A stretch of 21,359 bases of DNA, taken from IMG/VR virus record IMGVR_UViG_3300030090_002736, positions 1-21,359 of that record; one strand, given 5' to 3'. Made by a program: the position numbers and the translations under genes. The first letter of the stretch is position 1; each line of letters begins with the position of its first letter. The DNA comes from a virus. Below the pieces are notes generated by a model, which saw only the letters and a program-made list of their open reading frames with translations, did not search any database and had not been told where the DNA came from. This document shows positions 1 to 13,657 of the stretch, piece by piece.

Positions 1-228
1 TTCTTTCAACCTTTTTGTATAAGTACGTTGAGAATTAGCAATTTTTTGTAGTTGTTTGGCTTGTTTATTTTGAGCTATAGCCATTAACTCTATATTACTA
101 GCTAGAGCCATAACAGCTTGGCCATTATTCTTCATTGACGAAGTATTTTGGTCTATAGCTCTACTTTGATTTTCTATAGCTCTAGTTATCTTTTTTATAT
201 CTTGAGATAAGTCTACTTTTCTAGCCAT
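1..228 (-). CDS. Probable tape measure protein, N-terminal 76 residues (partial)
   Basis: The frame starts at an ATG at 228 and stays open to the window edge, so only the first 76 residues are visible. They are rich in Gln, Asn, Lys and Ala and look helical (start MARKVDLSQDIKKITRAI), with Ile/Leu/Ala spaced as in a coiled coil. The start lies one base after the stop of the tail-chaperone extension. In siphophages the gene directly after the frameshifted chaperone pair is normally the tape measure protein, which sets tail length and carries the DNA-ejection machinery. The assignment rests on gene order and helical character; no diagnostic motif is visible in this fragment. A different coiled-coil tail protein is possible. 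Confidence 0.6.
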   Translation of the reverse strand, partial: MARKVDLSQDIKKITRAIENQSRAIDQNTSSMKNNGQAVMALASNIELMAIAQNKQAKQLQKIANSQRTYTKRLKE

Positions 229-229
229 C

Positions 230-676
230 TTATTTTGCCTTTTTCTTGGTTGCTCTTCTTTCTATAATGTTAATTGCTTGTTTTATAATTGTTGTTATTG
301 TTATCCATTTTACAGGAGTATCTTCATATACTCCTTTGAATGGAGGTACTCCAAACTCTTTACAATAAAAATATTTATTAACTTCTTTGTCGTACCTGTT
401 ACTTCTAAAGTTATTGATACAAGTAAAAAAGGGCAATTGAGTGCTCACTGAACCAGCGATACTATACTCCTTGCCCTTAGAATTAGCTATGGTATCATCT
501 TTAACTAACCAAATAACATCCCAAACATCTTCGATATTATTAAAGGTTTTCTTCTGAAACCTACCATACCTATCTTTAACTGGTACTTGTGCTACATAAG
601 GAAACTCGCAATATGGACACCCTCTACACTCTGAGTCTATTAACAGAGATAATGCTAGTGCGAGGGAATCTCTTCC
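230..676 (-). CDS. Tail assembly chaperone G-T: -1 frameshift extension (T part)
   Basis: Immediately after the slippery GGGGGAA at 673-679, the -1 frame is open for 148 codons and stops at 230-232. It has no convincing start of its own: the only in-frame start near the end is a GTG at 448, deep inside the domain. A ribosome slipping -1 near the end of the 655-999 gene would make a fusion of about 256 residues, 108 from G and 148 from this frame. The extension opens with a hydrophobic helix (LALALSLLIDSE) and then a CxxCxxC cluster (CRGCPYC), and ends in a Lys/Arg tail (RRATKKKAK). This is the G/G-T arrangement known from lambda and many siphophages, where the fusion guides tail tube assembly on the tape measure. 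Annotating only 230-448 would lose half of the extension. Confidence 0.8.
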   Translation of the reverse strand, partial: GRDSLALALSLLIDSECRGCPYCEFPYVAQVPVKDRYGRFQKKTFNNIEDVWDVIWLVKDDTIANSKGKEYSIAGSVSTQLPFFTCINNFRSNRYDKEVNKYFYCKEFGVPPFKGVYEDTPVKWITITTIIKQAINIIERRATKKKAK

Positions 677-999
677 CCCATGTTCTGATGACTTTGAATT
701 GCCACAATAAGCTCATTCTTTTCTGTTTCACTTAATTGTTTTAAAACTGAATCATCAACTAGACCTGAGGCATTTAATTTAAAACTATTAAATTCCCCTC
801 CAGCTATTCCTCTTCTTAGCCAAGCTGTTCTTGATTTTGCCAATCCAGTGAAATAATTTCCACCAGCACCATCTTGATGTATAACTGTCGAATCACTACA
901 ATGGTCGACCTCATCTATTGTCATATCTTTTAACTTAACTTTTCTACCTGTAGATAGTTCAATAGTATCTTTAGGTAGCTCAACGATTTTTTTACTCAT
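655..999 (-). CDS. Tail assembly chaperone (G-like)
   Basis: A 114-residue soluble protein without Cys clusters or membrane segments; AGGAG precedes the ATG. It begins MSKKIVELPKDTIELSTG and contains a TIDEVDHCSD segment, like tail chaperones that start with a short beta region followed by a helical body. Two things support the role: position between the tail tube gene (1023-2072) and the probable tape measure gene, and the -1 open frame overlapping its last 20 or so codons. The slippery site GGGGGAA lies at codons 107-109, seven codons before the stop. The frame-0 product is the abundant G form; the fusion with the downstream frame is the minor G-T form. The sequence itself is divergent, so the call is mainly from architecture. 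Confidence 0.75.
   Translation of the reverse strand: MSKKIVELPKDTIELSTGRKVKLKDMTIDEVDHCSDSTVIHQDGAGGNYFTGLAKSRTAWLRRGIAGGEFNSFKLNASGLVDDSVLKQLSETEKNELIVAIQSHQNMGEEIPSH
673..679 (-). promoter_or_regulatory. Candidate programmed -1 ribosomal frameshift site
   Basis: In the mRNA sense the end of the chaperone gene reads ATG GGG GAA GAG, giving the heptamer G GGG GAA. The P-site GGG can re-pair perfectly one base back. The A-site GAA would move to GGA, an imperfect match, so this is not a textbook X XXY YYZ site; slippage may be P-site driven, and the purine-rich GGGGGAAGAG could add Shine-Dalgarno-like stimulation. The -1 frame opens only about 35 nt upstream, and no better slippery heptamer is visible in the short overlap. 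Confidence 0.65.
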
Positions 1000-1022: not shown

Positions 1023-2072
1023 TTATTGATTCCAAACATACTTAAATACGTTTGTTCCACTTGTATGGTTTCTAGCTTTTACTGTTGTACTTAATCCTAA
1101 GAAGTCTCCTTCATCCCATCCAATCTCTTCTATACTAACTTTTTCTATATTAATAACAAAGTTGTTAGAGTTGTCAGTAATTAATACACCATTTGTAGAA
1201 GCGTTTGTTGCACTAGCTCCAGTAGCTCTAGATGAAGCCCATAAAGTATCAAGGTTTGTATCATATTTTACTACACTAGCAAATGTGATAGCCATTTCTG
1301 GAACTGATCTTACATAGGTTTGAGGATCGCCTGCATCTAGACTTGTAGCTGCAGAGTCAGAACCACCTAGGAATGAAACAGGATTATCAATATTAAGACT
1401 CCAGCTCTTAAAGAAACATTCCTTGTCAAATAGTTGATAAGCACTATTATAGCTTGTGCCATAACAATAGTTTGTGCTATATGCTCCTATAGATGCTGCA
1501 GTTGAAAATGAACTAGATGGAGTTCTAGTTGAAGCTGTCAAGTCAAACTTTATTCTTCCTCCATCCTCATTTGCATCCCATGTTAAGCTAAAAGATGTTA
1601 TCACACATCCTGCTAAAATTATACAATCATTAAATCCACTTTCTCCTACGCCATTAAATGCAAAAGACAATGTCTTGTCAGCACCAGCAGTAGCATTATG
1701 AATAAATGTTTTATTTACTGAGCCTGTAGCTGCACTTTCTTTTGCAATAGTGATATGGTCAGGGTCACCTGCATATGCAACACCTGTAGCATTAGGCATT
1801 AAAAGTGCTTGTAGTTCATTTGTCATAAATCCACTTACTGATACTTCGTGAATAGAGCCAGGCTCATAAACAAATAAATCTCCTTCTGTAGTAAACCTAC
1901 CTGATTGAGCACCACCTCTTCCTTCTTCTTTATAATCTCCAATACTTGGAAAACTTACTGAGTCTGATTCAATTGCAGTAAAACTACTTGCAGCTGTACC
2001 TATTGTACTATTATCAATAGCTACGCCAACTTGTAGCTCCTTACCTGAAAAAAAACTTGTATTAGCAGCCAT
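1023..2072 (-). CDS. Major tail tube protein
   Basis: A 349-residue protein, rich in Ser, Thr, Ala and Gly and predicted to be mostly beta. It starts MAANTSFFSGKELQVGVA, a typical opening for tail tube proteins that list an internal tube strand early. It has an ESDSVSFPSIGDY stretch near residue 35 and a C-terminal region KVSIEEIGWDEGDFL then TTVKARN, resembling the tube-domain sandwich. It lies directly upstream, in transcription order, of the chaperone pair, the usual slot for the tail tube gene. It would polymerise into the hexameric rings of the tail around the tape measure. At 349 residues it is longer than minimal tube proteins, so an additional Ig-like or surface domain is likely. Confidence 0.65.
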   Translation of the reverse strand: MAANTSFFSGKELQVGVAIDNSTIGTAASSFTAIESDSVSFPSIGDYKEEGRGGAQSGRFTTEGDLFVYEPGSIHEVSVSGFMTNELQALLMPNATGVAYAGDPDHITIAKESAATGSVNKTFIHNATAGADKTLSFAFNGVGESGFNDCIILAGCVITSFSLTWDANEDGGRIKFDLTASTRTPSSSFSTAASIGAYSTNYCYGTSYNSAYQLFDKECFFKSWSLNIDNPVSFLGGSDSAATSLDAGDPQTYVRSVPEMAITFASVVKYDTNLDTLWASSRATGASATNASTNGVLITDNSNNFVINIEKVSIEEIGWDEGDFLGLSTTVKARNHTSGTNVFKYVWNQ

Positions 2073-10780: not shown

Positions 10781-11749
10781 TTATGTCCAGTTGTTTGCTG
10801 CTGTTGCTCCCTGCTCATATAAAGCAAAGACTCTAGCTTGATTTACACTAGCATCGTGTAGTAATCCACATCCATAGATAACATCAGTTACCATTTTGTG
10901 TGCGATGTAGTCCATATCATATTCTGCATTAGATGTAGGATACTTACTATAAGCAACCATTAAACCATCTTTGTGAATTAAAAATCCACCAGGATAGTTA
11001 TCATCATCTGTATTTGCTCCTAATTCATCAACTGCAGCTGAATTGATTTTATTACGATGGATTCTTGGACTTGCAATAACAGGAATACCCATAATTGTAC
11101 CAACTGTTCCTGTTGGGAAGTTAGCAACTCCACCTATCTTCTCTGCATGTACAAAATCATCAAGATTAAATAAAGATGCATATAATCTAGTTGATAGAAC
11201 AAGTACGCAATCTTCAGGGTTCATGCCTACTTTGTATAGATGTCTAACTATTGCAACGATTCTGCTTCTAGTTAAAACTCTATCTTCACTTGCTCCATTT
11301 CCATTATCTAGATTAATTGCTCTAGTTGTAGATGATAGTTTTGCAGCTAGTGCATCTTCGATGTGTAAAGCTAGTTTGTAGCCAATTGAATCTGCATATC
11401 CTGCCATTAGGTCTGAGCTAGATTGAACTTTAGCCATATCTTCAATCATAGCTGCAGTATAGTAATGCTGGTTTACATCCATTGTGATTTCAACTTCAGT
11501 ATTATTTGCATAACTAACTGCATCATATTGTGTTTTTTCAGCTGCATCTGCTACATCAGCGAATGTAGGTATATGAATTTTATCTCCACTACCTGCAACC
11601 AATGATGAATAGTCATTTGCAAGTGCACCTAGCACTAAGTTTTTCTTAAATGTCGATCGTATAGCATCACTCCAGAGTTCAGGTATAAATACACTATTTT
11701 CTGTACCACTGGAATAAGAATCTTGAACGACTGAGCTATAAAGTCCCAT
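10781..11749 (-). CDS. Major capsid protein
   Basis: Encodes 322 residues, with AGGAG before the ATG. It begins MGLYSSVVQDSYSSGTEN, then the typical capsid opening FIPELWSDAIRSTFKKNLV and GDKIHIPTFADV, which are the features of N4 gp56-like/HK97-fold capsid proteins whose N-terminus lists 'P-x-W-S/N ... L' before the first domain. The C-terminal region has the usual DxDYIAHKMVTDVIYGCGLL stretch near residues 270-300. It lies directly after the scaffold gene, as expected for an HK97-fold shell without a fused delta domain. It would form the icosahedral shell. The low Met and high Ala content are ordinary. Confidence 0.8.
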   Translation of the reverse strand: MGLYSSVVQDSYSSGTENSVFIPELWSDAIRSTFKKNLVLGALANDYSSLVAGSGDKIHIPTFADVADAAEKTQYDAVSYANNTEVEITMDVNQHYYTAAMIEDMAKVQSSSDLMAGYADSIGYKLALHIEDALAAKLSSTTRAINLDNGNGASEDRVLTRSRIVAIVRHLYKVGMNPEDCVLVLSTRLYASLFNLDDFVHAEKIGGVANFPTGTVGTIMGIPVIASPRIHRNKINSAAVDELGANTDDDNYPGGFLIHKDGLMVAYSKYPTSNAEYDMDYIAHKMVTDVIYGCGLLHDASVNQARVFALYEQGATAANNWT

Positions 11750-13399: not shown

Positions 13400-13657
13400 T
13401 TACCATTTTTTACAAGACCAATATCTTGCTTTAGTTTTTGGGCCAGGACTAGAACATTTATGCCTAGCTCTAAATGATTTTCTTCTAGCTGGGCTAGACT
13501 TTTTTATCCTCATATTAGGGTCGCCAAAGGTTACCCTTTTTACTCTACTACCAGCCTTTACAAATACTTGGAATTTCTTTCTACCATATCCAGGCTGTCC
13601 TTTTCTAATTCTAGAAGGCTTATTAAGTCTTACTGACTTACCCTTGAACTTCGCCAT
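13400..13657 (-). CDS. Conserved small basic protein (FGD...ARRKSFRARHKC...ARYWSCKKW)
   Basis: Encodes 85 residues, overlapping the end of the portal gene by 20 nt; GAGGAGG lies 6-8 bases upstream of the ATG. The order KKFQVFVK, VKRVTFGDPNM, ARRKSFRARHKC and KTKARYWSCKKW is one I recognise from small proteins and domains found in many phages and some large viruses, often next to portal or head genes; two Cys and the conserved Arg/Trp residues may bind metal or nucleic acid. I cannot name the family number with certainty. The protein is extremely basic and probably sits inside the head or at the portal. Confidence 0.7.
   Translation of the reverse strand: MAKFKGKSVRLNKPSRIRKGQPGYGRKKFQVFVKAGSRVKRVTFGDPNMRIKKSSPARRKSFRARHKCSSPGPKTKARYWSCKKW

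Follow-up and report, generated by a model that had tools for sequence, protein, structure and literature searches.

Does the tail assembly chaperone gene G of this virus stand alone, followed by an apparent 200-bp gap (449-654) and a small ORF (230-448), or does a -1 frameshift join it to a second frame, T, that runs through the gap? The analyzed stretch, hereafter the window, covers positions 1 to 21,359 of a virus record that is 22,321 bases long. Its minus-strand genes follow the order terminase, portal, capsid, tail, with the tail genes close to position 1 (Table 1). A G/GT pair should show a pair of overlapping frames flanked by the genes for major tail protein and tape measure protein, a slippery sequence conserved in the overlap and in the right register, a second frame without its own start that is conserved as protein, and a G protein resembling known chaperones. 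At the protein level, G and the fusion would be expected in unequal amounts and outside the virion. With very high confidence, we read the locus as a lambda-type pair of this kind, in which a minority -1 shift on GGGGGAA, helped by a stem-loop, would produce a G-T fusion. Judged by sequence, the tail chaperone of this uncultured phage family appears to carry a true signal for programmed -1 frameshifting.

Table 1 Features of the tail chaperone locus in the window
Feature	Position	Strand	Details
Probable tape measure protein gene, start	1..228	-	Cut by record end
T frame, -1 relative to G	230..712	-	Open 712-233, stop TAA 232-230
C87 of T, fourth putative zinc ligand	419..421	-	Invariant in 92/92 loci
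C-x2-C-x2-C of T (C18, C21, C24)	608..628	-	Three of four putative zinc ligands
Stem-loop	620..666	-	Starts 6 nt past heptamer
Stem 3' arm	630-620	-	AGTGTAGAGGG, A625 bulged
Stem 5' arm	666-657	-	CCCTCGCACT
G, tail assembly chaperone, zero-frame product	655..999	-	114 aa; ORF, ribosome site, predicted fold
Slippery heptamer G GGG GAA	673..679	-	Zero-frame codons ATG GGG GAA
Probable major tail protein gene	1023..2072	-	349 aa; position and conserved size

The ORFs bear out an earlier note on this DNA, which had G overlapped by a -1 frame ending at 230. G starts with the ATG at 999, preceded by AGGAG in a good ribosome site (TAATTAGGAGATTATTATG). The T frame is open as the note described, but only back to 712 and not to about 714, with a stop at 715-713. 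Since the first conventional T start in the window (ATG, GTG or TTG) is the GTG at 448, the supposed gap at 449-654 is T-frame coding sequence, again as proposed. The predicted G-T fusion of 256 aa comprises G residues 1-108 or 109 followed by ~147 T residues.

The genes flanking the two overlapping frames were assigned as major tail protein and tape measure by position and length. Upstream of G, most relatives encode a protein of 330-350 aa; the window's product at this position had no family match in Pfam/PHROG-type searches. On the other side, relatives with enough flank carry ORFs of 630-1000 aa at the tape measure position, and the truncated gene in the window gave a weak PHROG tape measure match (E 0.03). 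Neither G nor T of the window matched a Pfam or PHROG family above noise, and the likeness of G to chaperones, not detected by sequence searches, emerged by fold only. The G model (mean pLDDT 86.6) matched Mu FS-gp41 (probability 1.00, E 2.8e-3, 16% identity over the aligned part), and its further fold matches include annotated chaperones of Gemini, Teatealatte and HCTV-1. Two things identify the pair as lambda-type: the G fold, and a gene order in which G/T follows the major tail protein gene and precedes that for tape measure.

To collect related loci, we used G, T and a T alignment as scan queries; the scan with the alignment was limited to the best 80 of 272 relatives. In total, 92 loci were examined. 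Some contigs are present under two locus ids, and the 92 loci contain 73 distinct T proteins; we used 31 representatives below 80% identity, and 63 distinct sequences for stem-loop comparisons. In each of the 92 loci, T occupies the -1 frame relative to G and overlaps it by 40-94 nt, and it is conserved as protein across them. Stops in the -1 frame across 449-654, named in the earlier note as a result that would speak against the fusion, were looked for in the relatives and none was found. The genomes of T-carrying phages are AT-rich (34% GC) and uncultured. Searching bacterial and archaeal genomes with T turned up neither a prophage nor a host, and tblastn of three T proteins against cultured phage records gave no match.

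T could instead be a separate gene, translated by reinitiation after the G stop from a nonstandard or internal start of its own. T and G do overlap, about half of the relatives have a T-frame start codon shortly before the CxxC motif, and the three best matches in BFVD, 89-116 aa long, look as though annotated from internal starts. We nevertheless judge this very unlikely: 41 of the 92 loci (the window and 40 others) have no ATG, GTG or TTG in the T frame ahead of CxxC, and a separate gene would leave both the invariant heptamer and the conserved stem-loop described below unexplained.

In the -1 frame, the heptamer at 679-673 reads GGG GGA. The earlier note had nominated it as the slip site, with conservation in relatives as a check, and this choice held up. 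G GGG GAR occupies one place and register within the overlap in 92/92 loci (GGGGGAA in 87, GGGGGAG in 5), a conservation far beyond chance. By itself, GGGGGAA is not rare in the window (3 occurrences versus ~1 expected); across all loci, 92 of the 124 coding-strand GGGGGA hexamers sit at the slip site. The G stop TAG directly follows the heptamer in 17 loci, 12 with GGGGGAA and all 5 with GGGGGAG. An upstream Shine-Dalgarno-like stimulator is no conserved part of the signal, since GGAG was found within 24 nt in just 8 of the 31 representatives.

The sequence departs from the X XXY YYZ tandem pattern, bases 4-6 being GGA and not YYY, and the note had suspected a nonclassic mechanism on account of poor A-site re-pairing. 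This caveat carries little weight, because GGGGGAA is a documented and commonly annotated tail-chaperone slip site (PMC10885494, PMC5506516). The 'fivetwo' motif of PRFect is GGGGGAA in all of the roughly one thousand SEA-PHAGES cases, with re-pairing on GGA noted as possible through G:U pairing (PMC10885494), and corynephage phi16 combines the same heptamer with a predicted pseudoknot (PMC5506516). After a -1 slip on GGGGGAA, the Gly tRNA in the P site regains full pairing, and GGA can be matched by the Glu anticodon with one G.U; the slip may be tandem or confined to the P site.

Besides the heptamer, which the note had seen, the predicted signal includes a downstream RNA stem-loop that it overlooked; judged by sequence comparison, this RNA element is an unusually well conserved hairpin. 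Starting ~6 nt past the heptamer, relatives share a C-rich arm (GCCUCC or CCCUC); ~30 nt beyond that arm lies its G-rich pairing partner (GGAGGC, GAGGG or AGAGGG), which encodes C-[G/E/R]-G-C of T. Every one of the 63 distinct sequences keeps a 5-bp stem core, placed in either of two registers. Randomizing codons while keeping the T protein weakened the folds (mean z -3.75 over the 31 representatives), and excess folding relative to synonymous codons was confined to the region just after the slip site (-3.80 versus -0.19 to -0.93 elsewhere). For a Leu in the 5' arm, 30 of 31 representatives use CTC, a codon that accounts for 3 of the 191 Leu codons in the rest of T. One stem pair is compensatory (pair counts GC 15, CG 10), and for the mixed alignment both covariation score and paired percentage were higher than in 500 shuffles and in every slid version. 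In the subgroup to which the window belongs, neither covariation nor pair counts rose above shuffles, so the case for the stem-loop rests on the synonymous-codon test and the between-group comparison.

The window's own hairpin is less pronounced (-16.4 kcal/mol) and only moderately better than controls, with z -1.56 versus dinucleotide shuffles and z -1.06 versus synonymous codons. RNAalifold on all 63 sequences together returned only a weak 4-bp pairing of the slip-site G run with the C-rich arm, because the two stem registers were mixed. When groups were folded separately, the larger subgroup recovered the stem and the smaller, mixed one did not. The C-rich arm (666-657) is able to pair with either the 3' arm or the slip-site G run (679-675), and RNAalifold preferred the latter in mixed alignments. 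This alternative pairing could be incidental or a timing switch.

The hairpin also bears on transcriptional slippage, in which the polymerase would add a G on the G5 run and give the same fusion from an altered mRNA. The product would be identical; the conserved downstream stem and the GAR codon suit ribosomal slippage better, and a five-G run is short for polymerase slippage, making this explanation scarcely credible. A sequencing indel within a single long gene accounts for the frame change itself and nothing further, and its probability is negligible given the same -1 relation in 92 loci on many contigs. As general explanations, sequencing error and a separately started T are both untenable because of the heptamer and frame conservation across the 92 loci and the 41 startless ones.

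We therefore favor a -1 ribosomal shift that joins G to T, the core proposal of the earlier note, since it fits the heptamer, the conserved T protein, the missing starts and the stem-loop together. We infer that this shift occurs, and at an efficiency that keeps it the minority event: most ribosomes would translate G and terminate at 655, whereas a minority, helped by the stem-loop six nt downstream, would shift -1 at G GGG GAA and make the fusion. By analogy with lambda, whose G and GT roles are reviewed in PMC5009743, the G part of both products may bind the tape measure protein and the T part may recruit major tail protein subunits, so that the G:GT ratio would matter for assembly.

The AlphaFold model of T reached a mean pLDDT of 91.4, as expected of a real domain. 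A PDB fold search gave nothing significant, and a profile search of PDB sequences yielded noise only. Three BFVD fold matches with E below 0.001 are unnamed viral entries; these public T homologues (A0A516LCZ5, A0A516MHX0 and A0A516MDN7) look shortened, as if the frameshift had been missed in annotation. Six T relatives weakly matched the tail assembly chaperone family phrog_9001 (best E 3e-4).

A CxxCxxC cluster had been singled out previously as a possible zinc site. Relatives do have the cluster, with either C or H at its third position, and C87, which falls within what had been read as an ORF of its own (230-448), is also invariant. C18 and C21 are unchanged in 92/92 loci. Counted by script, position 24 is C in 53 loci, H in 38 and F in one; we read the F as the pattern landing on CRGCPCCKF of locus L017, with longer spacing, as the aligned residue of L017 at 24 is C. 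C106 is C in 78 loci and S or A in 14 and is thus not a required ligand. Four invariant C/H residues, the putative ligands that a zinc domain should have, are found in all 92 loci, making C18, C21, [C/H]24 and C87 the probable zinc site. On this pattern, T is probably a small zinc-binding domain.

The 3' arm of the stem shares nucleotides with the codons from C18 to C21. Whether the locus defines a new chaperone family, with T a zinc fold unlike solved structures and a hairpin built from zinc-ligand codons, is in our estimate evenly balanced; if true, one short RNA stretch would be selected for both structure and metal binding.

The frameshifts of dsDNA-phage tail chaperones were reportedly described as a family by Xu, Hendrix and Duda in 2004. 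Like lambda gpG/gpGT and that family, the present locus pairs a short chaperone with a predicted -1 frameshift fusion, and as in lambda the major tail protein and tape measure genes flank the pair. It differs in its GGGGGAR heptamer, in a T without sequence similarity to curated families beyond the weak phrog_9001 matches of some relatives, and in the strongly conserved downstream stem-loop. PMC3091744, citing Xu 2004, describes downstream structures as rare at tail-chaperone shift sites. The PRFect 'fivetwo' chaperones (PMC10885494) and phi16 (PMC5506516) share the identical heptamer GGGGGAA, and phi16 also has its predicted downstream structure. Those phages are cultured, whereas the present ones are uncultured and their T has no tblastn match in cultured records; the SEA-PHAGES training set averages 64% GC versus 34% here. 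Mu FS-gp41, a probable tail assembly protein that is frameshifted, resembles G in predicted fold, although Mu has a contractile tail and sequence identity is as low as noted above.

Most likely, then, this is the known G/GT kind, with a -1 slip and hairpin, in an undescribed family of uncultured viruses. The reading recovers a gene half, T, that standard annotation would miss in an uncultured phage group, and it places a fixed GGGGGAR slip site in an AT-rich phage family. The 92 loci offer a natural set for asking how the G:GT ratio at a nonclassic slip site is set by the hairpin that follows it.

Elsewhere on the minus strand of the window, 2343-2801 weakly matched Pfam Phage_tail_terminator_8 (E 0.0034), in agreement with the tail-gene order. 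The major capsid protein at 10784-11749 is distantly similar (~25%) to those of cyanophages such as Mastigocladus CHP58 and Anabaena A-4L. A very basic, Lys/Arg-rich ORF of 85 aa (13400-13657) adjoins the portal gene.
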